Source: an uncultured Hungatella sp.
GTDB lineage: Bacteria > Bacillota > Clostridia > Lachnospirales > Lachnospiraceae
DNA: 58,786 bases
Reading direction: 5' to 3'
Assembly: GCA_947089145.1 (NCBI GenBank)
Contig: CAMUJH010000026.1
Coordinates: 1 to 58,786 of the forward strand
Positions 37,827-57,653 of this stretch are shown here, in pieces. A model generated the notes under the pieces. That model saw only the letters and a list, made by a program, of their open reading frames with translations. It had not been told where the DNA came from and searched no databases. A program made the translations under genes and the position numbers. The stretch's first letter is position 1. Every line of letters starts with the position of its first letter.

Positions 37827-37951
37827 GCAGCCTTTTATAGTCAACCCAAAAAGTGCAGGAAAAATGGAAGCATAACGGAAATTTTGGTGTATATTTTCAA
37901 AAAACAGTCATACTAACAAAAGAAATCCATAAGAAAGGAACGTCTGAGAAT

Positions 37952-39124
37952 ATGAGACGAAAGGATATCTTTTGCAGAGCAGGGCTGTTTTTTGCTGTGA
38001 TTCTGGCGGCAGCAGTCCCTGTAACCGGGTGCGGGAAAGCTGCAGACGGCAGGCGGATTGTAAGAATCGCATTGGGGCAGTCGGAAAGCCATCCGGAATA
38101 TATAGGCCTTATGGCATTTAAGGAATATGTGGAGGAACAGCTGGGGGATCGGTATGAGGTGCAGATCTTTCCCAACGAGATTCTGGGAGCTGCCCAGAGG
38201 GCTATTGAGCTGACCCAGACAGGAGCCATTGACTTTGTGGTAGCAGGAACCGCAAACTTGGAAACGTTTGCAGATATATATGAGATTTTCAGCATGCCCT
38301 ATCTGTTTGATTCTCCGGAGGTTTACCAGACGGTTATGGGCGACGAGGCCATGATGAACGGCATCTATGAGTCAACAGATAAGGCAGGGTTCCGGGTATT
38401 AACCTGGTATAATGCGGGGACCAGAAATTTTTATGCCAAAAAGCCTGTTTACACGCCGGAGGATCTGAAGGGAATGAAAATCAGGGTGCAGCAGAGCCCG
38501 GCCAGCGTAAAGATGATGCAGGCATTCGGAGCGGCGGCTTCCCCAATGAGCTTTGGCGAGGTATACACGGCCATTCAGCAGGGAGTGATTGACGGGGCGG
38601 AAAATAATGAGCTGGCGCTTACAAACAACAAGCATGGGGAAGTGGCGAAATATTTTACTTATAACATGCATCAGATGGTTCCGGACATGCTGGTAGGCAA
38701 TCTGAAGTTTTTAAACAGCCTGACAGCCGAGGAGTTGGAAGTTTTTAAAGAGGCGGCCAGACGCTCCAATGAGGTAGAACTTGAGGAATGGGACAAGCAG
38801 GTGGAGGAGGCGAAACGAGTGGCGGCCGAAGACATGGGGGTGGAGTTTTTGAATACGGATGTGGAGCTGTTTAAAGAAAAGGTGCTTCCCCTTCACCAGG
38901 AGATGCTTTTGGAAAACCCGGACATAGCACAGCTGTATACGGCTATTCAGGAAATCAATGAGAACATGAAAGCACAAGGCATGGAATATGGGCCGGAGAT
39001 GGGGAAAGGAGAACCGGAGGGAGAAATAAAACCTCAGTCCGCCATGGAGGCAGGGCTGGGGATGATATGGAAATCGGACTGGGAATTTGCGGATGAAAAG
39101 GGGGAAGGAGCATGGATGGAATAA
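37952..39124 (+). CDS. dctP: TRAP transporter solute-binding lipoprotein (DctP)
   Basis: A 390-residue extracytoplasmic binding protein with a lipoprotein signal (RAGLFFAVILAAAVPVTGC) and the DctP fold: PYLFDSPEVYQTV, DLKGMKIRVQQSP with the carboxylate-binding arginine, and GVIDGAENNELALTNNKHGEV. It captures an organic acid, possibly a uronate or other sugar acid given the neighbours. Start 37952 has AAAGGA and a clean signal peptide; the frame runs 33 codons upstream. About 45 residues after the usual DctP end (near EINENMK) form a Gly/Glu/Met-rich tail. The last 13 bases overlap dctQ. Confidence 0.9.
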   Translation: MRRKDIFCRAGLFFAVILAAAVPVTGCGKAADGRRIVRIALGQSESHPEYIGLMAFKEYVEEQLGDRYEVQIFPNEILGAAQRAIELTQTGAIDFVVAGTANLETFADIYEIFSMPYLFDSPEVYQTVMGDEAMMNGIYESTDKAGFRVLTWYNAGTRNFYAKKPVYTPEDLKGMKIRVQQSPASVKMMQAFGAAASPMSFGEVYTAIQQGVIDGAENNELALTNNKHGEVAKYFTYNMHQMVPDMLVGNLKFLNSLTAEELEVFKEAARRSNEVELEEWDKQVEEAKRVAAEDMGVEFLNTDVELFKEKVLPLHQEMLLENPDIAQLYTAIQEINENMKAQGMEYGPEMGKGEPEGEIKPQSAMEAGLGMIWKSDWEFADEKGEGAWME

Positions 39125-39618
39125 GAAAACTGAGGGGAGGGCTTGACAAGGGGCTGGAAATTGTCCAGATAAGCCTGTTTGCCCTTATGGCAGCAGTGGG
39201 GACGTATCAGATTCTTGTCCGGTATCTGTTTAATAAGCCAAGCACCGTGTCAGAGGAACTGCTGACCTATGCATTTGCATGGCTGTCGATTTTGGCAGCG
39301 GCTTATATGTTTGGGAAGCAGGGGCACATGCGCATGGGTTTTTTGGCGGACCAGGCAGCAAAAGGAGCGAAGAAAGCACTGGAGATTGTATCGGAGTGTC
39401 TGGTATTTTTGTTTGCAGCCATTGTCATGGTATATGGGGGGATTCAGATTACCTCTTTAACGATGGCCCAGAAAACGGCATCTCTGGGAATCCCCATGGG
39501 ATACGTGTATGCGGTTGTGCCCTTGGGCGGGGGGATAATTCTTGTGTACAGCGTTCTCAACCTGATTCAGATGATAAGAGAAGCCAGGGATATCGAAAAG
39601 GCAGGTGAGCAGCAATGA
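39112..39618 (+). CDS. dctQ: TRAP transporter small permease (DctQ)
   Basis: A 168-residue protein with four membrane helices, matching DctQ: EIVQISLFALMAAVGTYQILVRY, the EELLTYAFAWLSILAAAYMF helix pair and a last helix near YAVVPLGGGIILVYSVLNL. It starts inside dctP (GGGAAGGAG upstream) and its stop overlaps the dctM start as ATGA, so the three genes are translationally coupled. Confidence 0.92.
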   Translation: MDGIRKLRGGLDKGLEIVQISLFALMAAVGTYQILVRYLFNKPSTVSEELLTYAFAWLSILAAAYMFGKQGHMRMGFLADQAAKGAKKALEIVSECLVFLFAAIVMVYGGIQITSLTMAQKTASLGIPMGYVYAVVPLGGGIILVYSVLNLIQMIREARDIEKAGEQQ

Positions 39619-40922
39619 GCATTGCGTGGACAGCCGGCCTGATAATCCTGACAGTTTTGATGATCTTGCTTCTTGCAGGCATACCCATAGCCATTGCTTT
39701 GGCCGTGTCGTCAATCTGTGCCATTCTGCCTGTTTTGGAACTGGAACCGGCTCTTTTAACAGGCGCCCAAAGGATATTTTCTGGAATTTCAGTGTTTAAC
39801 CTGATTGCCATCCCTTTTTTTATTCTGGCAGGAAATATTATGAATAAAGGCGGCATTGCCATTCGGCTGATACAATTTGCCAAGCTGTTTACCGGAAAAA
39901 TACCAGGCGCCCTGGCTCATACCAACATTGTGGCCAATATGCTGTTCGGAGCTATTTCCGGTTCAGGAACTGCGGCAGCTTCGGCTATGGGAGCCATTAT
40001 CGGGCCGGTGGAGGAAAAAGAAGGGTATGACAGAAACTTTTCGGCAGCTGTCAATATTGCAACGGCGCCGACAGGGCTTTTAATACCGCCCAGCAATGTA
40101 ATGATCACTTATGCGCTGGTCAGCGGAGGAACTTCCATTGCGGCGCTGTTTATGGCAGGATATATACCGGGAATTTTATGGGGGCTGGCCTGTATGGCAG
40201 TGGTGTATTTTTATGCCAGAAAGCGTGGATACCGCAGCACCCGGAGTTTTACGGGCAAGGAAAAAGTCAGAACCGCCTATGAGGCCGTTCCAAGCCTTCT
40301 CATGATCGTAATTGTAATCGGAGGAATCATCAAAGGAATTTTTACTGCCACAGAGGGAGCCGTGGTGGCCGTAGTGTACAGTTTAATCCTATCCCTGTTT
40401 TTTTACCGCTCCATCAGATGGCGGGATCTGCCGGGAATTTTTATGGACAGCGCACAGATGACAGGGATTATTATTTTCCTTATTGGCGTTTCCAGCATTA
40501 TGTCCTGGGTCATGGCGTTTACAGGGCTGCCGGAGGCTATCTCAGAAACCATGCTTGGGATCAGCAGTAACCGCTATGTGATTCTGCTGATTATTAATAT
40601 ACTGCTTCTGATTGTGGGCACATTTATGGATATGACGCCCGCCTGCCTGATTTTCACGCCTATTTTCCTGCCTGTCTGCCAGGCGCTGGGAATGAATTCC
40701 GTGCATTTTGGCATTATGATGATTTTCAATTTATGCATTGGAACCATTACGCCGCCAGTTGGGACTACGCTGTTTGTGGGAGTAAAAGTGGGAAATACCA
40801 GGATCGAAGAGGTGATAAAGCCTTTGCTGCTTTATTTTGCAGCTATTTTTGCAATCCTTTTGGTAGTGACGTATATACCGGCAGTATCTATGTGGCTGCC
40901 TGGGCTTTTGGGCTATGTATAG
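39615..40922 (+). CDS. dctM: TRAP transporter large permease (DctM)
   Basis: The 435-residue Na+-coupled transport subunit with about twelve membrane segments. Hallmarks are IPFFILAGNIMNKGG, NMLFGAISGSGTAAASAMGAI, the re-entrant APTGLLIPPSN and, in the second half, MDMTPACLIFTPIFLP and GTITPPVGTTLFVG. It completes the DctPQM set. A terminator lies 31 bases downstream. Confidence 0.94.
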   Translation: MSIAWTAGLIILTVLMILLLAGIPIAIALAVSSICAILPVLELEPALLTGAQRIFSGISVFNLIAIPFFILAGNIMNKGGIAIRLIQFAKLFTGKIPGALAHTNIVANMLFGAISGSGTAAASAMGAIIGPVEEKEGYDRNFSAAVNIATAPTGLLIPPSNVMITYALVSGGTSIAALFMAGYIPGILWGLACMAVVYFYARKRGYRSTRSFTGKEKVRTAYEAVPSLLMIVIVIGGIIKGIFTATEGAVVAVVYSLILSLFFYRSIRWRDLPGIFMDSAQMTGIIIFLIGVSSIMSWVMAFTGLPEAISETMLGISSNRYVILLIINILLLIVGTFMDMTPACLIFTPIFLPVCQALGMNSVHFGIMMIFNLCIGTITPPVGTTLFVGVKVGNTRIEEVIKPLLLYFAAIFAILLVVTYIPAVSMWLPGLLGYV

Positions 40923-40952: not shown

Positions 40953-40995
40953 AGGAAAGGCCGGTTCTTTGTGGTGAATCCGGCCTTTCCTGTTG
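40953..40995. terminator. Bidirectional terminator between dctM and caxA-like gene
   Basis: AGGAAAGGCCGG (40953-40964) and CCGGCCTTTCCT (40980-40991). On the minus strand the hairpin is followed by ATTTTTAAA, a good U-run for the long minus-strand operon; the plus-strand tail is weaker. Confidence 0.75.
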
Positions 40996-41061: not shown

Positions 41062-42027
41062 TCACAGGGTAAACTGAACCGTACAGAATGCCCCGTAAAG
41101 AATAAGAAGCGCAATTCCCTGAACTCTGGAAAGCTTCCCGCGGATAAGAGCCGGAACCGTCATAAGCAGCATGACTGCGAACATAACCGGAATCTCCAGC
41201 ACAAGAGAGGCATTGCGGCCAAAGATCACGGAACTTTGGGGAACGCTGAAAGGAGCCAGGGTCACGGAGACGCCGTTGACCAGCACCAGATTAAAAAGGT
41301 TGGCGCCAATTACGTTTCCAAGAGAAAGGGCCCCGTGTCCTTTCAAAAGGGAGGTGATGGCTGTCACCAGCTCCGGCAGGGAAGTGCCAAGCGCGACAAA
41401 AGTCAGCGCAATTACAGACTCCGGCACTCCAAGAGCCTGGGCAATAAGGGTTCCGTTGTCTACCAGAAGGTTGGCCCCTACGGCTATAAGGGCAGCGCCG
41501 ATAACCAGCAGGCCGATATTTTTTCCAAGAGGCTTTTCGGTTTCCTCTTTCTCACCATCCTCGTCTTCAGGTGGGTTATGCTTCATCTGCATTACGGTAA
41601 CTACCATGTAGACAACGAAGATTACCAGAAGAGCAGCACCGACTAACCGGCTGAAATATCCGGTGAAATAGGCAACTCCGGCATAAAGCACGGCAGATGC
41701 AAAGAAAAACATTACCGGCGTGCGCAGAGTCTTTTTGTTGACTGGCCCCGGCTTAACCGTAATGGTGATGGCCGCAATCAGTGCGGTGTTACAGATAATG
41801 GAACCGATGGCATTGCCGTAAGCGATTTCGCTGTGGCCTGTCAGCGCAGAAGTGGTGGAAACCATGACTTCCGGAAGGGTGGTGCCGATAGAGACAACGG
41901 TTGCGCCGATAAGCAGTTCCGGCAGACGAAACTTGCGGGCAATTCCCGTGGAACCGTCTACAAACCAATCCCCGCCTTTTATCAGGCAGACCAGCCCCAC
42001 AGCGAACAGCAAAATAGGAATCAGCAT
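41062..42027 (-). CDS. Calcium/sodium antiporter (CaxA/YrbG family)
   Basis: A 321-residue cation/Ca2+ exchanger with two inverted halves carrying the alpha repeats VVSIGTTLPEVMVS ... YGNAIGSIICNTALI and FVALGTSLPELVTA ... LGNVIGANLFNLVLV. Ten membrane helices are expected, with an acidic cytoplasmic loop (PPEDEDGEKEETEKP) between halves. Start 42027 has AGGAGA 7 bases upstream. It lies 39 bases after the broken esterase gene and before the terminator, so it is probably the last gene of the minus-strand operon that starts at the sugar-acid kinase. It may export Ca2+ or use Na+ entering with the permease's substrate. Confidence 0.9.
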   Translation of the reverse strand: MLIPILLFAVGLVCLIKGGDWFVDGSTGIARKFRLPELLIGATVVSIGTTLPEVMVSTTSALTGHSEIAYGNAIGSIICNTALIAAITITVKPGPVNKKTLRTPVMFFFASAVLYAGVAYFTGYFSRLVGAALLVIFVVYMVVTVMQMKHNPPEDEDGEKEETEKPLGKNIGLLVIGAALIAVGANLLVDNGTLIAQALGVPESVIALTFVALGTSLPELVTAITSLLKGHGALSLGNVIGANLFNLVLVNGVSVTLAPFSVPQSSVIFGRNASLVLEIPVMFAVMLLMTVPALIRGKLSRVQGIALLILYGAFCTVQFTL

Positions 42028-42066
42028 ATTTTTTTCTCCTAACATGTGTTTATTGATTAATTTGTT

Positions 42067-43520
42067 TTAAGTACTTTTGGCAGAAACCTGTCTGCAGGCT
42101 TTCACCTTACGTGAACCGCCGATGCGGCAGAATTGTCTCAGAAACTCCCAGGTAAGGCGGCTTTCCTCATAGACAGCGCCGTGCGGCATGTTTTTCATGA
42201 TAGTAACCATTACCATGGCCTGTCCATTTGGGTTTTTATAAGAAACCATGGAAAACCCGTCTCCTTTTGCTGTTTCCATGCTGGTGCAGCCGTTGGCGGC
42301 AACCATGGGTTCAGCCATGGGATCATTTTCGGCGCAGGCAGCCTTGTCTTTATCGCCGAAGATAAATGCAAAAGGCATTTCATATCCCGGCTGACGTCAA
42401 TTCCAAACTCTATTTCCATATCATACACGATTTGAGGAAATACCATACAGTCTCTTGGAAGGAACCAGATATTTCCCGGCGAATCGGGAGATACCAGGAT
42501 AAACTCCCCGGTTTCATCAGCAAGGGTATCCCATCCGTTTTTCCCAGTAAACAGCCAGGCCGGTTCCCCTCTGCCGTGTACGGTAAAGACAAGAGGAAGC
42601 CCTTGCAGCTGCTTTTTTGTCCGGCCTTCAGGCAGGTGTACAAAATAATCATAGTCAATACCGCTGACAGTAACTTTACGGTGCAGAAATCGGGGATCTT
42701 TATAGAATTCCTCTTTGCTGTCCACAAGAGCCAGAGTACCGTCAGGGCTGTTTTTCCATCGGATAACGTGTTCAAAGCATTGAGCCAGGATCATATTGTT
42801 CAGTTGGCGGTCTTCGAAGCAAAAATTTCCAAAAAACACCCGGGTCTGCCATGCCGGATTTGTCTTTGAAACTGTCACTTCCCCCTGCAGCCCCTGAACC
42901 GTTATCCGTGACTTTGTGCATTCCCCGTAACAGCCAGAAAAATAACCGGCCTCCTCCCAAAGTTTGCAGCTCTCTTTCTGGAATATCCATAGATGTACAG
43001 GAATGTCCCTGTTTTTCACATTATACTCTAAATCAGCATCCGGCACAAGCCAGCGGCAGGAAAAATCGTCTGCTCCAGAGAAATCATCCGGTACGCCGTT
43101 GACAAGTGCGGCAGCGGCAAACAAGCTGGGATACTGCACCAGGACGTTTCCGGCGAATACTGCCCCGTCATCATAGGCCGCCATATACAGCATGGTTTCC
43201 CAGCACCATAAGCTTCCCTGACGTCCCCAAATCGCTTTGCCGCTTCGGGTCTTAAAGTGATGGGCAGTTTCTCTGTAAATATCCAGGAAAAGGCTTTTGG
43301 GCTTTGCCGCCCATCCATCCGGCACAACTGGGATCACGAGCACAGCCTCCCTTTCTTCGGCCAAATCCTGCCAGCCGGAGGCAAGGGCAAACTGTCTGGC
43401 CGCCTTTAAGGTGCCCGCCTGGGCGGCAGGCGGGCACAAATATATGGTCTTACAGGGATCATGGGCAGCTTTGGATGAGACATAATAATACAGAGGATGG
43501 CTAAAATTTTGCAGATCCAT
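42067..43520 (-). pseudogene. Broken PHB-depolymerase-like esterase (internal deletion and frameshift)
   Basis: The first frame (43520 down to about 42400) reads well through an N-terminal alpha/beta-hydrolase-like region and into a second esterase domain (VSGIDYDYFVHLPEG, GLPLVFTVHGRGEPAW) up to VYDMEIEFGIDVSR. It should next meet a strand and the nucleophile GxSxG. Instead the protein sense jumps to another frame at PGYEMPFAFIFGDKD (about 42385), which belongs to the late part of the fold, and ends with the histidine region MPHGAVYEESRLTWEFLRQF. Some 80-100 residues with the catalytic serine are missing and the two parts are out of frame. It was probably a feruloyl/acetyl-type esterase of the operon. 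A GTG start at 43532 is also possible. Confidence 0.75.
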
Positions 43521-43538
43521 AGCAGGCGGCACCTTCTT

Positions 43539-44822
43539 TTACATCGGGAAAATAATTACTGCTGCAGCGCTTAAGGCCACGATCCTGATTAAATACATAG
43601 GTACGGAGAATTTCCAGAATTCAGGCAGCTTGTATTTGCCCATGCCCATGATCATGGCCGGCATGCCGTCAATGGGCATATATCCTCCCTGCCATCCTGA
43701 TACCACTACGGCGGCAGCGGCGGCCGTGGGATTCAGTCCCAGACTCATGCAGGACGCAATTGCAATAGGGGCGAAGATGTACACGGACCCCATATTGGAA
43801 CCGGTAAAAGTGGCGCAGGTACTGGTCAGAAGAGCGAAAAGCAGCACGATGAGAACCGGAGATACGCTGGTGCCCAGGGTTCCTGCGATGACTTCGCCGA
43901 TCATTGCGGTGAAGCCGGAATTGGCCAGGGCGTCAGCCACGCCGATAACGCCGGCCATCATAAGAATCACAGGGGCAAACATATTTTCACGGAACTCTTT
44001 AAAATCAACGACTTTAATCAGCAGCAGAGCCATGGCCGCCAGGCCAGGGATGGCGTAAGCCATATTGCCCAGTGTATTGAGAAGCATCATGCCGATGACG
44101 CTGACAATAAACAGAGCCACAGTGGCTTTCTCTTTCCATGCAGGCATATCAACTGCCTTTGTCTTTTCAATTTTGGCATTGGCGTCGTCCTCGGCCGCAG
44201 CGATAGGATGATCAGGAAGCAGCTTGTAAGAAACGAGACACCATGCCAGAAACGCAGCTGCCATAACAAAGTTTACCATAGCGAATTTTACCATGGAAAC
44301 CTGCTCCATAAATCCTGCAGTTTCCAGAACGGAACTGACAACCCCATAATAAAGCGCCACGTTAAAAGGCAGCAGGGGATGGTTGGTAGCGAATCCCAGA
44401 GGCATCATCAGTTTGGAGGTAGGCATTTTTTGGGTGTAAGGAATGGTGGAAATCAGGGACAGGATCAGCACGTAGTAGCCTGTATTGCCGCCTCCCACAA
44501 GGCTGGCCCCCAGCATTACTACAATAACCAAGAGAGCATAGCTTTTGTAACCGCCCTTGTTTACCAGGGAAATAAGGGCTTCTTTTACTTTATCCATAAG
44601 CCTGGTTTCCTGAACGCCTGCCAGCACTACCATAAAGGTTGCAATCATAATCACGCTGGAATTGGCAAAACCGGCAAAAGCTTCCGGGACTGTGGAGAGT
44701 CCAAGGAGCACCAGCAGAATACATGCGAAAATCGGCGGTGCGCCGAAAGGCATTACATCAAACATGATTAAGGCAATCATGATGATCAGCACTGCAAGGG
44801 CAAGAATCATTTGTGTTGTCAT
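43539..44822 (-). CDS. Anion:Na+ symporter of the SLC13/ArsB-NhaD (IT) superfamily
   Basis: A 427-residue polytopic permease with about eleven membrane segments. Features are the N-terminal ALIMFDVMPFGAPPIFACILL, FANSSVIMIATFMVVL, GGGNTGYYVLILSL and, in the second half, TSTCATFTGSNMGSVYIF and WQGGYMPIDGMPAMIMG. These match the ion-transporter superfamily that takes up di- or tricarboxylates and related anions. AAGGAGA is about 9 bases upstream. Its place among sugar-acid genes suggests import of the operon's anionic substrate. Confidence 0.8.
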   Translation of the reverse strand: MTTQMILALAVLIIMIALIMFDVMPFGAPPIFACILLVLLGLSTVPEAFAGFANSSVIMIATFMVVLAGVQETRLMDKVKEALISLVNKGGYKSYALLVIVVMLGASLVGGGNTGYYVLILSLISTIPYTQKMPTSKLMMPLGFATNHPLLPFNVALYYGVVSSVLETAGFMEQVSMVKFAMVNFVMAAAFLAWCLVSYKLLPDHPIAAAEDDANAKIEKTKAVDMPAWKEKATVALFIVSVIGMMLLNTLGNMAYAIPGLAAMALLLIKVVDFKEFRENMFAPVILMMAGVIGVADALANSGFTAMIGEVIAGTLGTSVSPVLIVLLFALLTSTCATFTGSNMGSVYIFAPIAIASCMSLGLNPTAAAAAVVVSGWQGGYMPIDGMPAMIMGMGKYKLPEFWKFSVPMYLIRIVALSAAAVIIFPM

Positions 44823-44863
44823 ATTTGTTTATCTCCTTTTCGTTTTGGCATGGTAATTGCTTA

Positions 44864-45850
44864 TTACAGCCGGTCCCTCAAAAACTGATATGCAAACCCG
44901 TCAATCTGGTGCCCCAGAGAAGGCCCATGGCCTCCCTGGGAATAAGAAATATATGTAGCATCCGCGCCGGCAGCCATCAATGCTTTATAGAGCATTTCAC
45001 TCTGGCTGATGGGAACAATGGGGTCGCAGCCTCCGTGGAAGATGCATACCGGCGGATTATCCCTGCTTACATATTGGATAGGGCTGCATTGCTCCATCAG
45101 CTGGATATAATGCCAGTCAGGGTCAGACTTATCCCCCTTATCCAGCACCTGAGCCAGCTTTTCCATGGTGCGTCCCGGCCCGGTGTACCCTACAATCAAT
45201 GCAGGTATGATTCCGGCTGTGTCATTTCCCACATTTTCAATTTCCGTACCTGTTAAGTCTTTAGGGCTTCCATCCAAACCTTTTGCATTTGTCCTCAGAC
45301 TCTCTGTTAAATCGCAGGGGGCATAGAAAAGGCATGCGGCTTTTACGGAGCTGGAGTATTCCAGATTTCCTCCCACCGTACCTTCCAGCCCAGGACAGCG
45401 GGAACTGAGAGCCACCATGGCTGCCAGGTGCCCTCCTGCCGAATTTCCCAATACGCCGATACGCTCCGGATCAATGTGGTAATCCCGTCCATGGGCTTTC
45501 AGAAAGCGGATCACGGCTTTGGCATCATGAATGCAGGCAGGGAAAACAGCCTGGCTTACGAGACGGTAATCAGGGCAGACGACGGTGTAGCCTTCTGCCG
45601 TCATATTGACCAGATCTCTGCAGTATACGGCTTTTTGAGTTACCTGTTTATATTCGCCCCACATCCATCCGCCGCCGAAATAGTAGACAATGCATGGCCC
45701 CGGCCGGCGCTGGGAGGGGGATTGATAGATATCCAGCTTCAGGGCATAGGACTGCCCGTTATCCAGAGCGGCCTCCCCGTATACAATATCTTCATACCTG
45801 GGCGGCTGCCCCGGAGGGCACAGAGGTTTTACTTTAGGCGGAATATACAT
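44864..45850 (-). CDS. Alpha/beta hydrolase (esterase/lipase, BD-FAE-like)
   Basis: A 328-residue cytoplasmic serine hydrolase with no signal peptide. The oxyanion motif reads FGGGW at 58-62, with Phe where HGGG is usual. The nucleophile elbow is GNSAG (Ser137). The acid is probably D in HGGCDPIVP and the histidine in SQGGHGPSLGH near the C-terminus. Such enzymes deacylate carbohydrates or short-chain esters. ATG 45850 follows the stop of the sialidase-fold gene after one base, so translation is coupled. It may remove an acyl group from the imported compound. Confidence 0.85.
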   Translation of the reverse strand: MYIPPKVKPLCPPGQPPRYEDIVYGEAALDNGQSYALKLDIYQSPSQRRPGPCIVYYFGGGWMWGEYKQVTQKAVYCRDLVNMTAEGYTVVCPDYRLVSQAVFPACIHDAKAVIRFLKAHGRDYHIDPERIGVLGNSAGGHLAAMVALSSRCPGLEGTVGGNLEYSSSVKAACLFYAPCDLTESLRTNAKGLDGSPKDLTGTEIENVGNDTAGIIPALIVGYTGPGRTMEKLAQVLDKGDKSDPDWHYIQLMEQCSPIQYVSRDNPPVCIFHGGCDPIVPISQSEMLYKALMAAGADATYISYSQGGHGPSLGHQIDGFAYQFLRDRL

Positions 45851-45851
45851 A

Positions 45852-47012
45852 TCACTGCACCTTTGCGGACGTAGGATTGTAAAGACCTACGGTTTCCCGC
45901 TTTTTGCCCATAACGTCCTCTTCTGTAAAACTCATGTACTTTACGCCGATACGGTCTTTATAGGCAAATGCCAGATGAAGCCGGCCGTCTGCGCCCTGCA
46001 TAATATAGGGATATTCATACTGCTTGTTGTTGGTCTTATTTTCATCACCCATATAGCCTTCCCCCCGCTCCATATACCGGATCATAGGGAACGTAAGTCC
46101 GCCGTCCTCAGACAAGGCAACCGCTACCGGGCAGCGCAGCCCGGGCCAGGAGGCAATGCCCGGAGTAGGGCAGGGGGTGCAGGTGGGATTATAGGCAATG
46201 GCGATTCTTCCGCTTTTCAGCTTTACTGCACTGATGCTGGAGTTATTATTGGGAAGAACCGTGGGAACAGGGGCTGTCCAGGTATCCCCGTTATCTTTTG
46301 ATTCGCTGCGGTAAATATTGTCAGCTGCCCGGCTCCGCATGAAAGCTGCCAAATGTCCCGGCTCCAGTTCCACCACGTTGGCGTGTACCGCTCCGTTGCT
46401 CTCAGGCATATCCACCTTTTTCCAGGTTTTTCCCTGATCGTCAGAAATGCGGAAAGCCGTAGGATCTCCCGTCAGTCCCAGCTCTGAATCCGTGCAGATC
46501 CAGTTGCCGAATATCCAGCGGCCATTGGCCAGCACCTGAATCGGCTGCCTGCAGAAACTTCCCTCTTCCGGGAAAACCGTTTCATAATCACTCCATGTCT
46601 TTCCCCCATCCTGGCTTTTCTGGCAGCGGATAACCGAAGTAAACTGCATGTTGTCCTTGCCCTCTACCCGTGATAACTGAGAAGTATACATTGCCCAGAC
46701 TTTCCCGTCCGGCCCTGCAAAGAGAGAAGGATTCTGCTCGCTTCTGTCCGGATCATGGGAAACTTCCACTGGCTCTTCCCACCTGTCAGATCCTTTGGGA
46801 AGCCGTGCACAGACCACGTTAACATCTGCATTCCCCTCGAATGAGCCGGCAAACCAGACGCACAGCATATCGCCGTTATCCAGTTCCAGAAGCCCCGGTC
46901 CATGGGCCGTCTTATATCCTCCCGGAGGAATCATAGCCTCAACTGTACCCAAGTCCTCATTCCAATACATCTTCCCGTCAGGCGTCAATCCCGGCAATCT
47001 TGTGTATTCCAT
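45852..47012 (-). CDS. BNR/Asp-box beta-propeller protein (sialidase-like fold), cytoplasmic
   Basis: A 386-residue protein with three Asp boxes: SQDGGKTW (133-140), SDDQGKTW (190-197) and SKDNGDTW (238-245), giving a six-bladed sialidase-type propeller (BNR_2). There is no signal peptide or membrane anchor, unlike secreted sialidases, and no nan genes are near. It is therefore uncertain that sialic acid is the substrate; a glycosidase or lyase acting on an imported acidic oligosaccharide fits the operon better, but this is inference. AAGGAG precedes ATG 47012. Confidence 0.8.
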   Translation of the reverse strand: MEYTRLPGLTPDGKMYWNEDLGTVEAMIPPGGYKTAHGPGLLELDNGDMLCVWFAGSFEGNADVNVVCARLPKGSDRWEEPVEVSHDPDRSEQNPSLFAGPDGKVWAMYTSQLSRVEGKDNMQFTSVIRCQKSQDGGKTWSDYETVFPEEGSFCRQPIQVLANGRWIFGNWICTDSELGLTGDPTAFRISDDQGKTWKKVDMPESNGAVHANVVELEPGHLAAFMRSRAADNIYRSESKDNGDTWTAPVPTVLPNNNSSISAVKLKSGRIAIAYNPTCTPCPTPGIASWPGLRCPVAVALSEDGGLTFPMIRYMERGEGYMGDENKTNNKQYEYPYIMQGADGRLHLAFAYKDRIGVKYMSFTEEDVMGKKRETVGLYNPTSAKVQ

Positions 47013-47069
47013 ATTCCTTTATCTCCTTTTCTATAGAATTTTCTCCTCCAGCCTGGCCCTGCGCCAGAC

Positions 47070-48095
47070 TTACGTTCTCTCTGCCATCCGAATTCCATAA
47101 TCCAAAGCATTAATCAGGCTCAGCTCACTGGCAAGCCCTGTCCCCGCCTGGTCGAAGGCGGTTCCGTGGTCCACAGACGCCCGTATAATAGGCAGGCCAA
47201 GTGTAACATTTACCCCGGCTACAGCATCCCACTTCTTCTCCTCCCGGTTATAGACAAACCCTACAACCTTCAGCGGAATATGCCCCTGGTCGTGGTACAT
47301 GGCCACTACGATATCATACCAGCCGCCCCGTGCCTTAGAGAACACCGTGTCAGGCGGTACAGGCCCCTCTGCAAGAATCCCCTCTGCCTTAGCCGATTCA
47401 ATAGCCGGAGTGATCTCCTCAATCTCTTCCCGTCCAAACATCCCGTTCTCACCGCTGTGAGGGTTCAGCCCTGCAACTCCGATTTTTGGCTGTTCAATTC
47501 CAAGCTGTTTACATGCCTGGTGGGCAATGCGGATAACCTCGAGCACCCTGTCTTTTTTTACCCTGTCACAGGCTTCCCGCAGCGATACGTGAGTGGACAC
47601 ATGAACCACCCTTAAATTTTCATGAGCCAGCATCATGGTATATTTGCTTGTATTGGTATATTCCGCATAAATCTCTGTATGCCCGGAAAAGTGATGGCCT
47701 GCCAGATTCATAGCCTCTTTGTTCAGCGCATTGGTCACTGTGGCGTCTACTTTGTGCTCCATGGCAAGTTCAATGACCTTTTTTACATACTGGAACGCCG
47801 CATTTCCCGCCATAACCGAAACCTGCCCCCGCTTCAGCTGACGGATATCCACAGCCTCCATGTCATAGACATCAATGGTTCCGTACTGGAAAAGAGCTTC
47901 GCTTACATCCTTGATTCCATGAATTTTCAGGGTTTTGTCCAGTCCGGTAATGTTAAGCGCCTCCTCCATAACGGATACGTCACCCACCACAAGAGGCCTG
48001 CACCGCTCATATACTGCGGGGTCAGACAATGCCTTTGCAGTGATTTCCGGCCCGATGCTTGCGGGGTCGCCCATGGTTATCCCGATAATCTTCAT
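47070..48095 (-). CDS. PdxA2-type 4-phospho-sugar-acid dehydrogenase
   Basis: A 341-residue member of the PdxA family, beginning IIGITMGDPASIGPEI, with GHTEIYAEYTNT (metal His), AGLNPHSGENG and AMYHDQGHIPLK (metal His). PdxA itself oxidises 4-phosphohydroxythreonine, but paralogues next to DUF1537 kinases oxidise and decarboxylate D-threonate or D-erythronate 4-phosphate to dihydroxyacetone phosphate. The partner kinase is in this operon, which favours the catabolic role. AGGAGG is 6 bases from the start. Confidence 0.88.
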   Translation of the reverse strand: MKIIGITMGDPASIGPEITAKALSDPAVYERCRPLVVGDVSVMEEALNITGLDKTLKIHGIKDVSEALFQYGTIDVYDMEAVDIRQLKRGQVSVMAGNAAFQYVKKVIELAMEHKVDATVTNALNKEAMNLAGHHFSGHTEIYAEYTNTSKYTMMLAHENLRVVHVSTHVSLREACDRVKKDRVLEVIRIAHQACKQLGIEQPKIGVAGLNPHSGENGMFGREEIEEITPAIESAKAEGILAEGPVPPDTVFSKARGGWYDIVVAMYHDQGHIPLKVVGFVYNREEKKWDAVAGVNVTLGLPIIRASVDHGTAFDQAGTGLASELSLINALDYGIRMAERT

Positions 48096-48106
48096 AATTC
48101 CGCCTC

Positions 48107-49006
48107 CTATTTGTTCTTATATTCTGCGTAATAAGTGTCAATGGTTTTCTGGATTCCGGCCACGGCTTCCTGGGGCAGGATACCGAAAGGCTTTCTGCAG
48201 GGGCCTACAGGCTGACCGATAAGGTTAGTAGCGCACTTTACCACAGAATTAGGGTTGCCGTACTTAAAGCAGTCACGGATCTGCGCAATGGAATTCTGAG
48301 CCTTCTTGGCATTTTCCATGTCGCCTTTCAGATAGTATTGGTAAATGCTTACCATAACCGTAGGAAGAATATTGGCAATGGCTGTAATTCCCCCATGGCC
48401 TCCTGCCAGAAGAGTCCACAGAATCAATGCGTCATTGCCGGAAAGAACCGAGAAATCAGTTCCCTCTGCAGCCTGGATATACTGCAGGATATTGTTAAAG
48501 TTACCGCTGGAGTCTTTTACTCCGGCAATATTGGAAAAATCTTTTGCCAGCCGCCCTACGGTAGACGGCGCCAGGGCGGCTCCTGTCCTGGCCGGGATAT
48601 TGTACATAACCACAGGAAGGCTGACAGACTCTGCCACTGCGGCAAAATGCTGGTACAGTTCCTCCTGGCTGACAGCGGCAAAGTAGGGGGTAATGACAGA
48701 GAGCACGTCAACTCCGATTTCCTCCGCCTTTTTGGACAGCGCAATGGTTTCCTTCGTGCCGATGCATCCAGTGCCGGCATATACCGGAACACGTCCCCCA
48801 ACCTGATCCACAAAGATTTCCATAACACGGATTTTTTCTTCCATAGACATAATATAAAATTCGCCGTTGGTTCCCAGACAGAATACCGCATCTACGCCTG
48901 CGTTAATCTGGCGGTCAATCTGTCTGCGGAGCTCTTCCTCATGGATACTGCCATCTTCATGCATGGCTGTCTGCATGGCCGCAATAATTCCCTTGATTTC
49001 AGTCAT
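48107..49006 (-). CDS. DapA/NanA-family class I aldolase
   Basis: A 299-residue TIM-barrel Schiff-base lyase: pyruvate-binding GTNGEF (45-50), the catalytic tyrosine Y135 in MYNIPARTG and the Schiff-base lysine K164 in GVKDSSGN. True DapA has GTTGES; the GTNGEF variant is common in catabolic relatives such as 2-keto-3-deoxy-sugar-acid aldolases, N-acetylneuraminate lyase and 4-hydroxy-2-oxoglutarate aldolases. Its partner genes suggest aldol cleavage of a 2-oxo acid to pyruvate and an aldehyde. GGAGGG precedes the start, and it lies 3 bases after the alcohol dehydrogenase gene. Confidence 0.88.
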   Translation of the reverse strand: MTEIKGIIAAMQTAMHEDGSIHEEELRRQIDRQINAGVDAVFCLGTNGEFYIMSMEEKIRVMEIFVDQVGGRVPVYAGTGCIGTKETIALSKKAEEIGVDVLSVITPYFAAVSQEELYQHFAAVAESVSLPVVMYNIPARTGAALAPSTVGRLAKDFSNIAGVKDSSGNFNNILQYIQAAEGTDFSVLSGNDALILWTLLAGGHGGITAIANILPTVMVSIYQYYLKGDMENAKKAQNSIAQIRDCFKYGNPNSVVKCATNLIGQPVGPCRKPFGILPQEAVAGIQKTIDTYYAEYKNK

Positions 49007-49009
49007 TTT

Positions 49010-50170
49010 TTAACCCTCCTTCAGAACTTTTAAATAAATGGAACGGATATCTTCAATACGTAACTCTTTCATGTTATTAACCAAAAGCCTCTGCTGCTTA
49101 CTCCCTGCATCCACCAGGAACTCCAGGTCTTCCATCTTAACTCCGAATGCATTTAAGTCAGTGGGAATGCCGGTGTTCTTTACAATGGCCTCAATGCGGC
49201 TGACCATGTAATCTGCCTTTTCATCCTGAGACTTTGCAGAACATTCCGGGTAAACCCCGTCACACAGGGATGCCAGCCTTTCCTGACAGGCATCCTTGTT
49301 AAATTCCATAACATGGGCAAACAGGATGGCATTGGAAATGCCGTGGGCAATGTGGTACTTTCCGCCCAGAGGATAGCTTAAGGCGTGGACCGCAGTGGTG
49401 CCGCTTCCGGTAATGGCCACGCCGCCGTAAAAGGCGCCCAGGAGCATGCTGTCCCTTGCCTCTATATTGGAAGGATTGGCATAAGCCTCTTCGATGTTCC
49501 TGAAAATCAGCTTTGCACTTGCCAGAGCATAGGTGTCGCTTAAGGGAGTGGCCTTTTTCGAGGTAAAACATTCGACAGCATGGGCCAGGGCATCAACTCC
49601 CGTTGCAGCCACAATAGGAGCCGGCAGGCCGGCAATCATCCCTGCGTCCAGAATCACATAGTCCGGTATCATCTCTTCATTTACAATTCCCCTTTTCGAC
49701 TGTTCCTCAGGAACCGCCACGATAGCGTTGCAGGTTGCCTCTGCGCCGGTTCCGCAGGTGGTGGGAATCATAACCGTCTTAAGCTGTTTTGACGCCAGAA
49801 GGGGGTTGTCCAAAAGATCTTTTACTTTGTAGGAAGAACCCTTCAGCAGGGAGCACAGCTTGGCTGCGTCCATAACGCTTCCGCCGCCTATGGCAAAAAT
49901 AATATCTCCGTTTTCTTTGTCCATTTGCTCTGCCACGCGTTCAACATCCTGGTAGGCCGGTTCGGGCTTTAAGCCGTCAAATATTTTACAGCTGACGCCG
50001 GCTTCGTCTAAAACCTTTAACAGCCTGTCAAGAAGCCCGGCGCCGGCAACCCCTTTGTCCGTAAATACCAGGGCCTTTTTGGCAGATTCCTTGTTTACAA
50101 TGGTTTTAATGTCCTCAATGCTCCCGATTCCTGAATAGACGCAGGGCGGGATTTTAATTCGATATGCCAT
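49010..50170 (-). CDS. Iron-containing alcohol dehydrogenase
   Basis: A 386-residue group III dehydrogenase: nucleotide loop FAIGGGSVMDAAKL, TTCGTGAEATCNAIV, metal ligands D and H in LDAGMIAGLP ... GVDALAHAVECFTSK, and two more histidines in YPLGGKYHIAHGISNAIL. It probably reduces the aldehyde made by the neighbouring aldolase, or oxidises a hydroxy acid, with NAD(P)H. Start 50170 has GGAAGGTGG; the frame runs 8 codons upstream. Confidence 0.9.
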   Translation of the reverse strand: MAYRIKIPPCVYSGIGSIEDIKTIVNKESAKKALVFTDKGVAGAGLLDRLLKVLDEAGVSCKIFDGLKPEPAYQDVERVAEQMDKENGDIIFAIGGGSVMDAAKLCSLLKGSSYKVKDLLDNPLLASKQLKTVMIPTTCGTGAEATCNAIVAVPEEQSKRGIVNEEMIPDYVILDAGMIAGLPAPIVAATGVDALAHAVECFTSKKATPLSDTYALASAKLIFRNIEEAYANPSNIEARDSMLLGAFYGGVAITGSGTTAVHALSYPLGGKYHIAHGISNAILFAHVMEFNKDACQERLASLCDGVYPECSAKSQDEKADYMVSRIEAIVKNTGIPTDLNAFGVKMEDLEFLVDAGSKQQRLLVNNMKELRIEDIRSIYLKVLKEG

Positions 50171-50200
50171 ATTTCCACCTTCCTTTTTATGCATGCATTT

Positions 50201-51463
50201 TTAATGCCCCTTTAATTCCTCTGTCAATTCCCACAGCAGCTGTTCTTTGCCAAAGCCGCCGGACTTCGTAATAATATGATATTCCCTGCAGCCATAGAAA
50301 AGCTTTGTCAGCACGCATCCAGGCCTGATTTCGCGAATGGGCTGCAATTCCTTTTGTCCGATTTCCTTCATAAACCCAAGCAGCGTATCTCCGCCTGTTA
50401 CCAGCACAACGGCGCAAAGTCCTCCGTCCAGCATTTTTTTCAGGACAATGCCCAGGCTGTCTGAGATTTTCTGACGCACCTGTTCAGTATCCATGCCCTT
50501 TTGTGCGGCATAGGCCAGAGTTTTGGCCTGCCCTTCCTGGTCGTTGCTGTCAAGCATAACGCAGTCAAAAGCCTTGCTGTCCAAAAGCAGCTTCCCGATT
50601 AAACGATCCCCGGCTTCTGAGCTCCAGAAATCTCTGTCCAGCTTTTCTTCCGGGGTCATGTACACCCTTGGATAACCGGCCTGCTCCCCAAAACATAACT
50701 GCTTTTTGGTAATGGGATTTACGCTGCCGCAGATAACAAAAAGCTTTTCCTCCAGAACGGTTCGGGCAGGAGCACTGCGCTCCAGCCCCAGAAGCTGGGG
50801 AAGAATCAGGGCAAATCCTGCGCATCCTGCCAGGAGCCGGCTTTTTCCCGATGCGGTCAGGCTTTTTCCGATGTTTTGGATATCTTCTTCTGTCTCCGCG
50901 TCAAAGACGACGATGCCCGCCTCCTGCCAGTCTTCCTCATGGGGGCTGGCTGCTTCCCTTACGGGAACCTGGCTTTGGAGCCGGATGATATCTTTTACGG
51001 AATCATGCTTCACCGGCTCAAAGGGGTCGGCTCCAAATACGCTTTGACTGACTAAAACGCCGTCAATATACTGTTTTCCGCCTTTGGTGGTTCGGTTCAT
51101 CTGGGGGAATGCAGGGACAAAAACAAGGTGATTTTCCCCGGAGGCAGCATAAGCTGCTTCCAGCTCGCTTCCGATATTTCCCCGGAGGGCAGAGTCTGTT
51201 TTCTTGTAAATATAGGGAATTCCGGCCTTTTTCCCGTCCGCCACAATGTCATATACTTTCCTGAATGCCTGATCTTTCGGCATATGCCTGGTTTCTGCAT
51301 CAATAACCAGAACAGCTGCCTGACTGGGGCTTTGGGCATCTTTCAGATTTCCTCCGCCTTCTGAGCTGACGATTACCCTGGTCTGAATTCCCTTTTCCGC
51401 AAAATGGACTCCAGTGTCCAAGGCGCCTGTAAAGTCATCAGCAATAATCATTAACTGAACCAT
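50201..51463 (-). CDS. Four-carbon acid sugar kinase (DUF1537; OtnK/DtnK type)
   Basis: A 420-residue kinase. The N-terminal domain starts MVQLMIIADDFTGALDTG and contains KKTDSALRGNIGSEL and PAFPQMNRTT; the C-terminal nucleotide-binding domain has CGSVNPITKKQL and VLVTGGDTLLGF. The family phosphorylates D-threonate, D-erythronate, L-threonate and related acids at the 4-position. It is the first gene of the minus-strand operon. Start 51463 has AGGAGGTGA 5-6 bases upstream. The left arm of the intergenic inverted repeat lies directly before that site, so a bound repressor would block the 5' end of the transcript. Confidence 0.9.
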   Translation of the reverse strand: MVQLMIIADDFTGALDTGVHFAEKGIQTRVIVSSEGGGNLKDAQSPSQAAVLVIDAETRHMPKDQAFRKVYDIVADGKKAGIPYIYKKTDSALRGNIGSELEAAYAASGENHLVFVPAFPQMNRTTKGGKQYIDGVLVSQSVFGADPFEPVKHDSVKDIIRLQSQVPVREAASPHEEDWQEAGIVVFDAETEEDIQNIGKSLTASGKSRLLAGCAGFALILPQLLGLERSAPARTVLEEKLFVICGSVNPITKKQLCFGEQAGYPRVYMTPEEKLDRDFWSSEAGDRLIGKLLLDSKAFDCVMLDSNDQEGQAKTLAYAAQKGMDTEQVRQKISDSLGIVLKKMLDGGLCAVVLVTGGDTLLGFMKEIGQKELQPIREIRPGCVLTKLFYGCREYHIITKSGGFGKEQLLWELTEELKGH

Positions 51464-51479
51464 AATCTCACCTCCTATC

Positions 51480-51586
51480 TGTTTCATTTTAGAACAAATA
51501 TCGTTTGAATTTGACAGTTAAAGAATACTACATCTTTTCATATGTTTCAATTAAAAACATAACAGTATTTGTTCTTTTTTGAAACA
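51480..51586. promoter_or_regulatory. Long inverted repeat bracketing the kinase-operon promoter
   Basis: The left arm TGTTTCA-tttt-AGAACAAATA (51480-51500) and right arm TATTTGTTCT-tttt-TGAAACA (51566-51586) are 21 bp each and match as reverse complements except in the 4-base spacer. Between them, on the minus strand, is TTGAAA (51550-51545), 17 bp, TATTCT (51527-51522). Further half-sites TGTTTCAA at 51543 and TTGAAACA at 51628 give four in all. This looks like a two-site operator, perhaps with DNA looping. Confidence 0.65.
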
Positions 51587-51618: not shown

Positions 51619-51718
51619 ATTTTCATATTGAAACACTATCTGCATCTGAGAAAAACATATTAAAAAACAGACAGAAAGAGACTCCGAGAGTACATTAAGA
51701 AAATAAGGAGGGAGGAGC

Positions 51719-53494
51719 ATGAAAAGAAAATATAGGATTTTGGGCATAGCGCCCTATCAGAGCCTGAAAAACGCCATGACTGCAGCGGCGGAAAAATACG
51801 AGGAAGTTGAATTAACAGTCTATACAGGAAATCTGGAGGATGGAGTACTGCTGGCCCTGCAGTATATGAACCAGGGATTTGACCTTATTCTGTCCCGGGG
51901 CGGAACTGCGGATATGATTCAGAAAGTGGCATCCATTCCAGTGGTTGAGATTCCCGTGTCCATTAATGATATTCTTCGGGCTATTCTCCTTCTGGAGAAC
52001 CTTACGGAACCTTATGCCATTGTTGGTTATCCCAATATTACTCAGCCGGCTCATATTTTGTGTGAAATGATGAATTACCAGATGAACATTATTACCATCC
52101 ACCATCCGGAGGAATTGGATGAGGTTTTGCGGAGACTGAAAGAGGAAGGCAATCACCTTGTTTTGTGTGATGTGATTACAGAGACAGTGACCAGAGAGGC
52201 AGGCCTGGAGCCGATTTTGATCACGTCCGGCCCCGAGGGCGTTGAAGGCGCCATGGAGACTTCAATTCATATGTGCGATGCCATAGAGGAGACAAAGGCC
52301 AGAAGCCGTCTCTTTGCAGCGGCGCTGCAGATGCAGGGCATGGGGACCGTTATTATGAAACAGAATGGGACTGTGTTGTTTTCCACCTATAATAAAGAAA
52401 ATGTTGCTTCTGTTATGGGATATCTGCGGAAAATGGCGGAGGAACCTCATGGCATGTCTGCTAAGGGGTTTCATATGATAGACAAGGGGCTGTATTCGAT
52501 TTTGGCGGAAAAAGCCGATTTTCTCGGGGAACCCTGCTATATATTCTGTGTGGAACCCAATCCTTGCCCAGTAGGCGGCAGCAAACACGGAATCCGTTTC
52601 TCTTCCTATACAGAGATTTCGGTTATGTATTCCGGAAGCTTTTATTCCCTTACGGCCAGCGCAAGAATCATGGAAGAAAAGATTAAGATGATTAACCAGA
52701 ATCAGATGCCGGTTATGATTCTTGGGGAGCGGGGAGCAGGGAAAAACCAGCTGGCAGCCAAGCTTTATCTGGAAAGCTCTATGCGGAAATATCCCTATGT
52801 GACCATAGACTGTCAGGTAGTAAATGACAGGACATGGAACTATATAGTAGGCAATTACAACTCGCCGCTTAATGATCAGAATAATACCATATTTATCAGC
52901 AATATTCAGGCATTGTCAAAGAACCAGCAGAATCAGCTGCTGTCACTTCTGGTGGATACGAATGCATATAAGAGAAACCGGATTATCTTTTCCTGTTCCC
53001 AGACATTGGACAGAGATATGGATGACCCATCCAAGAATTTTATTGACTATCTTACCTGCATAACCATCTATATGCCGCCGTTAAGAGAGTTGGCAGATGA
53101 TATCCAGAACTCTTCCAATCTGTACCTGAACACCCTTAACGTGGAATTGTCCAGGCAGATTGTGGGATTTACGCCAGAGGCACTTGAGCTGCTGGTCAGC
53201 TATCAATGGCCGGATAACTTTCTTCAGCTAAAACGGGTGCTGGCGGAGCTGGTTATGCTTACATCAACGTCTTATATTCAGTATGATACTGTGTACCAGA
53301 CCATTGAGAAGGAAAAGAGGCAGTATGTGCCGTCAGCTTCCGCCATGTTCCACTATGACCGCCCTTTAAGCGAAATGACCCATGAGATCGTAAAGGTGGT
53401 TCTGGCCCGGTGCGGCGGAAACCAGACGCTGGCGGCCAAAAGGCTGGGCATCGGACGCACTACCCTGTGGCGGTATCTGAATGAGGGGAACTGA
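51719..53494 (+). CDS. PrpR_N-domain regulator with degenerate AAA+ module
   Basis: 591 residues in three parts. Residues 1-170 resemble the PrpR_N ligand domain (ILGIAPYQSLKNAM, FDLILSRGGTADMIQK, VGYPNITQPA), followed by a PAS-like middle. From about 325 a sigma-54-activator AAA domain is recognisable but altered: Walker A is GERGAGKN (336-343), the GAFTGA loop is absent, and the Walker B position reads TIFISN (390-395) with no DE pair. The C-terminus is a Fis-type helix-turn-helix (GNQTLAAKRLGIGRTTLWRY). It probably cannot hydrolyse ATP or contact sigma-54, so it should act as an ordinary DNA-binding repressor or activator of the divergent sugar-acid operon. AAGGAGGGAGG precedes the start. 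Confidence 0.85.
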   Translation: MKRKYRILGIAPYQSLKNAMTAAAEKYEEVELTVYTGNLEDGVLLALQYMNQGFDLILSRGGTADMIQKVASIPVVEIPVSINDILRAILLLENLTEPYAIVGYPNITQPAHILCEMMNYQMNIITIHHPEELDEVLRRLKEEGNHLVLCDVITETVTREAGLEPILITSGPEGVEGAMETSIHMCDAIEETKARSRLFAAALQMQGMGTVIMKQNGTVLFSTYNKENVASVMGYLRKMAEEPHGMSAKGFHMIDKGLYSILAEKADFLGEPCYIFCVEPNPCPVGGSKHGIRFSSYTEISVMYSGSFYSLTASARIMEEKIKMINQNQMPVMILGERGAGKNQLAAKLYLESSMRKYPYVTIDCQVVNDRTWNYIVGNYNSPLNDQNNTIFISNIQALSKNQQNQLLSLLVDTNAYKRNRIIFSCSQTLDRDMDDPSKNFIDYLTCITIYMPPLRELADDIQNSSNLYLNTLNVELSRQIVGFTPEALELLVSYQWPDNFLQLKRVLAELVMLTSTSYIQYDTVYQTIEKEKRQYVPSASAMFHYDRPLSEMTHEIVKVVLARCGGNQTLAAKRLGIGRTTLWRYLNEGN

Positions 53495-55831: not shown

Positions 55832-55865
55832 TTCAGTTAACAGGAAAAAGGAGCGGTAATCAGTT

Positions 55866-57479: not shown

Positions 57480-57546
57480 GCATCTTTTGGCTTAACAGGA
57501 GATGGGGAGCTGATCAGCAGAAGAATCCAATATAGTAGAAAAGCAG

Positions 57547-57573
57547 AGAAATGCGCCGATGACGCATTTCTTT
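57547..57573 (+). terminator. Hairpin after uxuB, probable terminator
   Basis: AGAAATGCG (57547-57555) and CGCATTTCT (57563-57571) form a perfect 9-bp stem followed by TTGCG; the U-run is poor, so read-through into the regulator gene is possible. Confidence 0.5.
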
Positions 57574-57653
57574 GCGTACATGGAAATAGTAAAAGCATAG
57601 AGGCAGCAAAGCAAGAGCATATAGAAACAAGCTCTGGGAAGGGAGTACTGGAA

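Follow-up and report, generated by a model that had tools for sequence, protein, structure and literature searches.

Nine genes lie on the minus strand of contig CAMUJH010000026.1 (assembly GCA_947089145.1), analysed here as a window of 58,786 nt to whose full length all coordinates refer, and run from a kinase gene starting at position 51463 to a gene for a CaxA-type antiporter ending at position 41062. This operon is predicted, with good though not full confidence, to encode the cytoplasmic catabolism of 3-deoxy-D-lyxo-2-heptulosaric acid (Dha), a rare C7 2-keto-3-deoxy diacid that belongs to side chain D of the pectin rhamnogalacturonan II (RG-II). In the order of transcription its genes are:

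50201..51463, minus strand: DUF1537 (SBD_N/NBD_C) four-carbon acid sugar kinase, predicted D-threonate kinase (PF07005, 166.9 bits; PF17042, 70.7 bits)
49010..50194, minus strand: iron-containing alcohol dehydrogenase (Fe-ADH), lactaldehyde-reductase-like (PF00465/PF25137; TIGR02638 264 bits, under its cut-off of 523)
48107..49006, minus strand: pyruvate aldolase of the DapA/NanA superfamily, predicted Dha aldolase (PF00701, 284 bits)
47070..48095, minus strand: PdxA family, predicted D-threonate-4-phosphate dehydrogenase (PdxA2; PF04166, 362 bits)
45852..47012, minus strand: cytoplasmic BNR_2 (sialidase-fold) propeller, predicted Dha glycosidase (PF13088, 205 bits)
44864..45850, minus strand: BD-FAE/Abhydrolase_3 esterase, accessory (PF20434, 176 bits)
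43539..44822, minus strand: SLC13/CitMHS-type anion permease, predicted importer (PF03600, 89 bits)
42067..43532, minus strand: alpha/beta hydrolase (PHB-depolymerase/CE1-like), broken (partial NCBIfam match of the PHB-depolymerase type)
41062..42045, minus strand: Na+/Ca2+ antiporter of the CaxA/YrbG type, predicted to export the Ca2+ that comes in with a Ca2+-chelating substrate (PF01699, 206 bits; TIGR00367 above cut-off)

The nine genes on one strand and the families of their products had been recognized in an initial annotation of this DNA, but the eighth gene is broken in this assembly, and a divergently transcribed regulator had been missed. That gene, the hydrolase, is split over two reading frames (open reading frames, ORFs, 42210-43532 and 42067-42378), and 199 bp of a near relative (locus L032, 90% identity over 1509 aligned bases) are absent from it at about position 42387; it is either a pseudogene or an error of assembly. 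A Pfam scan of the hydrolase gave no match. Intergenic gaps of 30, 3, 11, 57, 1 and 41 bases are reproduced with the gene starts used initially, while the last two, measured from the ORF ends used here, are 6 and 21 instead of 18 and 39.

A scan of named genomes returned 93 relatives of the propeller gene (bnr), the best 80 of which were kept as the 80 loci referred to throughout, with counts of dapA, bnr and the regulator confined to full-length open ORFs. Kinase, Fe-ADH, DapA-like aldolase and PdxA are all present in 63 of the 80 loci and in 44 of the 47 that extend over at least 20 kb, and all four genes share the strand of the propeller gene in 61 of the 63. Carriers include Lachnospiraceae, Faecalibacterium and other Oscillospiraceae, Streptococcus, Enterococcus, Paenibacillus and Trichococcus, as well as Oribacterium, Solobacterium, Spirochaetaceae, Pectobacterium and Brenneria; the core gene set is widely conserved, across phyla. 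Within 250 genomes of the family, the propeller finds matches in 30 at an E-value of 1e-3 and in 13, the window's genome included, at no less than 48% identity, and a close PdxA is found in all 13 genomes with a propeller orthologue vs 21 of the 237 others (p = 5e-13). Plasmids carry the set as well. A bnr homologue is present in 300 plasmid records, which come mainly from Rhizobium, Sinorhizobium and Pantoea, with three from Haladaptatus, and the annotated homologues are mostly named exo-alpha-sialidase. Five of these plasmid regions were opened, and all five annotated products are found in those of S. meliloti, A. fabrum and R. leguminosarum.

This survey bears directly on the explanation first put forward for the locus, by which an acylated, glycosidically linked sugar acid is de-acylated, cleaved and divided between separate branches leading to pyruvate and to dihydroxyacetone phosphate (DHAP). 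Such a scheme would give work to the esterase, hydrolase, propeller and permease that all stand in the operon, but the esterase recurs in 9 and the hydrolase in 13 of the 80 loci, and the latter is broken in the window itself. Esterase and hydrolase are accessories, and therefore an acylated substrate is not required. The four central enzymes occur together as the members of one chain would, and a single C7 ulosaric acid accounts for both products, since aldolase, reductase, kinase and PdxA would form one linear sequence if the substrate is Dha; the two-branch scheme thus appears improbable. Other parts of the initial proposal fare better: the substrate is predicted to be larger than threonate or erythronate, anionic, glycosidically linked and cleaved inside the cell, and import is probably often by the SLC13/CitMHS-type permease, a relative of which is found in 48 of the 80 loci. 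The expected co-conservation of the gene set is likewise borne out, by the 63 of 80 loci.

Loci without the SLC13 permease often have DctM-type TRAP, TAXI-type TRAP or ABC systems in its stead. A caxA gene or a P-type cation ATPase, which we read as calcium-type, is present in 30 of the 80 loci, and together with the CitMHS-type permease this suggests that uptake may be coupled to Ca2+. The P-type cation-transporting ATPase by itself is seen in 17 loci (L081, L085, L097 and others), often downstream, in Enterococcus, Streptococcus and Lacrimispora-type loci, and mostly where clostridial loci have caxA. A TerC-family membrane protein, possibly another metal exporter, follows the permease in Brenneria (L091:12586-13308; also L104), and its cluster recurs in Pectobacterium. 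The calcium exporter would also be explained if the substrate were oxalyl-L-threonate derived from ascorbate, a compound of the plant apoplast according to PMC6099474, from which an esterase would free L-threonate and oxalate. Esterases, a C4 acid kinase and a Ca2+ antiporter are indeed all at hand; this account nonetheless leaves aldolase, Fe-ADH and propeller unused, calls on esterases that occur in a minority of loci, and conflicts with a kinase/PdxA pair that, in agreement with the best kinase model, is of the D-threonate type. It is very improbable.

The chemistry of the C4 end of the route is suggested by the kinase and the dehydrogenase. The kinase is the sole PF07005 match in the window's genome and has the D-threonate kinase model as its best NCBIfam match, at 205.3 bits, while PdxA scores above the general pdxA cut-off of NCBIfam. 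The operon combines a DUF1537 kinase with a PdxA-family dehydrogenase, as does the DtnK-PdxA2 pair. In work by Zhang and colleagues in 2016 this pair reportedly takes D-threonate to DHAP. The operon resembles that pathway in its kinase and PdxA families and in DHAP as predicted product, and departs from it by the addition of an upstream DapA-type aldolase, an Fe-ADH and a sialidase-fold enzyme that are predicted to make the C4 acid within the cell. By Fischer bookkeeping, a cut between C3 and C4 of D-lyxo Dha followed by reduction of the aldehyde gives D-threonate. A simpler explanation would have kinase and PdxA2 serve plain D-threonate or D-erythronate use amid unrelated neighbours, given that the known C4 pathway uses both families and that pdxA and kinase are found without dapA or bnr in many other genomes of the family. 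Indeed, most close-pdxA genomes lacking either propeller hold only pdxA and the kinase, some of their contigs being short. Yet among 34 genomes that possess a close pdxA, dapA accompanies the operon in 14 of the 17 that have bnr or a BT_1020-like gene (described below) vs 3 of the 17 that have neither (p = 2e-4, a post hoc comparison in which some contigs are short), and this tie, together with conservation of the core set across phyla, makes plain threonate use unlikely. The initial statement that DUF1537/PdxA2 degradation needs no aldolase requires a qualification, since L-threonate/D-erythronate clusters include a protein of an 'aldolase' family in passages of PMC10580937, although nothing in these passages points to a DapA-type enzyme.

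The aldolase shows the conserved residues of the DapA/NanA superfamily, with the Schiff-base lysine Lys164, Tyr135, Asn136 and Pro138 found in 68 of 68 sequences. Three further positions are kept in 67 of 68 sequences each, namely Arg140 (the arginine of YNIPxRT), Asn47 (within GTNG, where it replaces the second Thr of dihydrodipicolinate synthase, DHDPS) and Phe109 (within P-x-F, at the position of DHDPS Tyr107, a correspondence numbered by motif). DHDPS condenses pyruvate with a C4 semialdehyde acid, the carboxylate of which is bound by its Arg138. The operon aldolase has in common with DHDPS its fold, the Schiff-base lysine and the YNIPxRT arginine suited to a C4 semialdehyde; it differs in GTNG for GTTG, in the Phe at Tyr107, in its catabolic operon and in the presence of a better-scoring DapA elsewhere, as the window's genome has three further PF00701 genes, among them a DapA that scores higher and carries GTTGE and PYYN motifs. 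The catalytic Thr-Thr pair and Tyr107 of the DHDPS of lysine biosynthesis are not kept, Asn standing for the second Thr and Phe for the Tyr.

A propeller of sialidase fold, a gene of the DUF386/YhcH family (29 of the 80 loci) and an aldolase of the DapA/NanA superfamily are also the parts of sialic acid catabolism, which likewise employs a propeller glycosidase, an anomerase family and a pyruvate aldolase acting on a 2-keto-3-deoxy acid, so that another ulosonic acid such as sialic acid or Kdo could in principle be the substrate of the NanA-like enzyme. The difference lies in the substrate, a C7 diacid being expected here as opposed to a C9 amino sugar acid, and in what follows the aldolase, where the operon has reductase, kinase and PdxA instead of enzymes for N-acetylmannosamine (ManNAc). 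Among those recurrent neighbours that were examined, neither a ManNAc kinase nor an epimerase turned up; the arginine of the aldolase occupies a position that is Leu in N-acetylneuraminate lyase, and cleavage of Kdo would give arabinose, no substrate for a C4 acid kinase/PdxA pair. Thus sialic acid or Kdo makes a poor candidate, and its catabolism was rejected on these points, as were oxalyl-threonate and plain threonate use on those given above.

The propeller profile matches sialidases (GH33) in the PDB, with a best E-value of 1.6e-12, and the orthologues inspected show no signal peptide at their N-termini. In an alignment with 4fj6 the second and third arginines of the sialidase site are kept (Arg226 and Arg293). 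The full active site of a GH33 sialidase is not kept, with His37 at the RIP arginine and His210 at the glutamate that pairs with the tyrosine nucleophile, this tyrosine being outside the aligned part. Sequence comparison thus leaves the chemistry of the propeller uncertain, a Dha glycosidase being the likeliest role and an anomerase or lyase the other candidates. Propeller models including BNR_2 match the window's protein and PF24067 (BT_1020-like, N-terminal beta propeller) does not, placing it outside that family, and BT_1020 (5mqr) is not among the best 60 of the 70 PDB matches of the window's propeller family. The two families are joined by hhalign with 93% probability (E 3.5e-7) over 88 columns of the Asp-box region (residues 207-310). 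A list of invariant positions drew on 93 of the 98 bnr rows and omitted those below 45% identity. His37 is invariant in window-type propellers (42 of 42), as is His80 in BT_1020-like ones (11 of 11), within a similar TxxHxP context; this correspondence is a reading of motifs and not an alignment, because the hhalign match is confined to those residues 207-310.

The operon is also linked to BT_1020-like genes. The PF24067 family has members in 12 of the 250 family genomes, 11 of them over cut-off, the twelfth (G054, 20.7 bits) being dropped as below cut-off and interrupted by stops. All four enzymes lie within about 15 kb of the BT_1020-like gene in five of the 11 (G132, G194, G157, G158 and G181), and part of the set is found in G220 (dapA and Fe-ADH) and in G098 (Fe-ADH, the other three genes being on a different contig). 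G008, G236, G114 and G199 have none of the four, the last three carrying more distant members that are about 30-37% identical. The BT_1020-like gene of G132 and G194 stands after kinase, Fe-ADH, dapA and pdxA, and no bnr orthologue was found in the fetched stretches, so that it takes the place of bnr. G157, G158 and G181 have kinase, PdxA, DapA and Fe-ADH of more distant types (kinases 27-31% identical), which suggests that the same four functions were assembled separately there. In locus L107 a PF24067 protein adjoins bnr itself, and at E 0.01 a single PDB entry matches it, BT_1020 itself (5mqr), over residues 19-583 with an E-value of 3e-111. What the analysis establishes is that the gene set exists, that it is conserved and that it is linked to BT_1020-like (GH143-type) genes.

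BT_1020 belongs to the Bacteroides RG-II system (GH142/GH143), and the likeness lies in propellers of its N-terminal type standing beside the same four enzymes. The window's propeller, by contrast, is of a separate, smaller BNR_2 family, and the BT_1020-like proteins of Firmicutes match only residues 19-611, without the GH142 part and without an evident signal peptide. Two Bacteroidota records place a BT_1020-like gene in a TonB/SusD cluster that also contains genes for GH140, GH43 and rhamnosidase and, in one record, for GH28 and a polysaccharide lyase. GH28 is enriched in genomes with BT_1020-like genes (10 of 11 vs 62 of 239, p = 2e-5). Large neighbours of the BT_1020-like genes are mostly ABC transporters by Pfam, with one GH35 and one DUF5696; in naming neighbours, clusters of spurious antisense ORFs were set aside. 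A BNR_2 domain fused to a domain of the FGE-sulfatase type (L126:10702-13065) stands beside pdxA in several BT_1020-like loci. For BT_1020, PMC7263609 places a GH142 beta-L-arabinofuranosidase in the C-terminal barrel, GH143 is tabulated as a Dha hydrolase in PMC7761036, and PMC8141875 describes how YhcH supplies NanA with its 2-ulosonic acid, N-acetylneuraminate, in the open form. Since YhcH recurs among the 80 loci and a BT_1020-like gene occurs beside bnr, these neighbours point to a 2-ulosonic acid as substrate.

A variant of the Dha pathway in which the propeller is a Dha anomerase or lyase and not a glycosidase has a modest chance of being correct. It would accommodate His37 and His210 in place of the sialidase Arg and Glu as well as the presence of both propeller types in L107, and NanM, an anomerase, is also a propeller. 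However, the family from which an anomerase would be expected, DUF386/YhcH, occurs together with the propeller in 29 of the 80 loci, and a BT_1020-like propeller replaces bnr in G132 and G194.

If the propeller is a glycosidase, the complete route would be as follows. An anionic Dha compound, either free or as a small glycoside and possibly as a Ca2+ complex, would enter through the SLC13/CitMHS-type permease (in relatives through TRAP, ABC or other transporters), with CaxA pumping Ca2+ out. The BNR_2 propeller would then free Dha, the ring of which a YhcH-family anomerase would open in many relatives, and the DapA-like aldolase would cleave Dha to pyruvate and 2,3-dihydroxy-4-oxobutanoate. 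This aldehyde would be reduced by Fe-ADH with NAD(P)H to D-threonate, phosphorylated by the DUF1537 kinase to D-threonate 4-phosphate, and oxidized and decarboxylated by PdxA2 to DHAP and CO2 with regeneration of NADH. The predicted net reaction, Dha + ATP to pyruvate + DHAP + CO2, would be redox-neutral, and as the NADH spent by Fe-ADH would be regained by PdxA, such a route would suit fermenters. A PrpR_N regulator binding TGTTTCA boxes would control the operon.

Several observations weigh against this interpretation. The kinase falls below the D-threonate kinase cut-off (its 205.3 bits vs 450), PdxA is under that for D-threonate-4-phosphate dehydrogenase (339 vs 583 bits), and the aldolase clears the NCBIfam cut-off for plain dapA; the DapA of R. 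leguminosarum lacks the signature, and the arginine is found in 10 of 11. In the propeller, the replacement of the RIP arginine and the glutamate counts in the same direction, as does the YNP...R.P.A pattern, which occurs in 21 of 42 window-type rows vs 10 of 11 BT_1020-like ones. A PF24067 search of the window's genome gave no match, and simple replacement of one propeller type by the other fails to explain why L107 (L109 by clustering) holds both. None of the four enzymes is present in 5 of the 80 loci, some of these on short contigs. On plasmids, the Pantoea sp. JZ2 region has four products and YhcH, a tblastn search of it finding no kinase, and the P. agglomerans region has only propeller, YhcH, SDR and symporter, without the four enzymes. 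The N-terminal propeller of BT_1020 is reportedly its GH143 part according to Ndeh and colleagues (2017), whereas the papers cited above locate only GH142, in the C-terminal barrel, and give the activity of GH143. Lastly, genomes with bnr are not enriched in GH28 (5 of 13 vs 67 of 237, p = 0.31); the carriers of the operon are taken to scavenge Dha after its release, or else small glycosides of it.

The regulatory features around the operon are:

51719..53494, plus strand: divergent regulator composed of a PrpR_N sensor, an AAA+ domain lacking GAFTGA, and HTH_8 (domain scan)
51480..51486, 51543..51549, 51580..51586 and 51629..51635, no strand assigned: four TGTTTCA/TGAAACA sites in the intergenic region, predicted operators
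51522..51550, minus strand: sigma-70-like promoter match of the operon (TTGAAA-17-TATTCT, 9 of 12 positions; a consensus match only)
about 40953..40991, minus strand: operon terminator hairpin of 15 pairs, T tail on the operon side

The divergent PrpR_N/AAA+/HTH_8 regulator, relatives of which are found in 63 of the 80 loci, belongs to the operon system. A sigma-54-dependent activator was considered and rejected, as a GAFTGA-like motif is found in only 1 of 55 full-length relatives and sigma-54-like (-24/-12) promoter sites in none of 53 orthologous intergenic regions. The Walker-A pattern is retained in 31 of the 55, and the family, which resembles sigma-54 activators in its AAA+ domain, may thus include many members that have lost ATPase function. 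The same 53 regions hold 67 TGTTTCA/TGAAACA sites, with at least one in 39 regions, vs a mean of 2.3 and a maximum of 8 in 100 base-composition shuffles. Sigma-70-like consensus matches in the region number 22, vs 16.5 expected. At the other end of the operon, the 145-nt stretch with the hairpin folds at z = -2.8, with 2 of 200 shuffles equally good. The terminator had been called bidirectional, of which the hairpin with its T tail on the operon side stands, the tail read from the plus side being poor; a simple terminator scan does not list the hairpin at 40953-40991. A complete DctPQM TRAP transporter (37853-40922), convergent with the operon, was left out of it. Hexuronate catabolism genes adjoin the operon just past the divergent regulator, where UxuA mannonate dehydratase, a UxuB-like gene of the mannitol dehydrogenase family and a GntR/FCD regulator occupy 54752-58340, and an Rfam scan of the window gave zero matches.

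Vascular plants have RG-II in their primary walls, and the enzymes with which Bacteroides dismantles it are known. No description of a Dha catabolic route was found in the open-access literature searched, subscription papers lying mostly outside the search; the enzyme families are known, and their combination into a Dha pathway would be new. We consider it fairly probable that a widespread route from Dha to pyruvate and DHAP exists, that the window's BNR_2 propeller is the first member of a new family of Dha glycosidases with His in place of the RIP Arg, that uptake of Ca2+-complexed substrate is balanced by a dedicated exporter, and that many carriers are scavengers. The proposal lends itself to direct testing, since substrate and product are defined for every step. 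If it is true, a large number of genes annotated today as exo-alpha-sialidase, dihydrodipicolinate synthase, 4-hydroxythreonine-4-phosphate dehydrogenase and four-carbon acid sugar kinase would acquire one joint function spanning gut, oral and root bacteria, and a family annotated as sialidases would be removed from counts of enzymes directed at host glycans.

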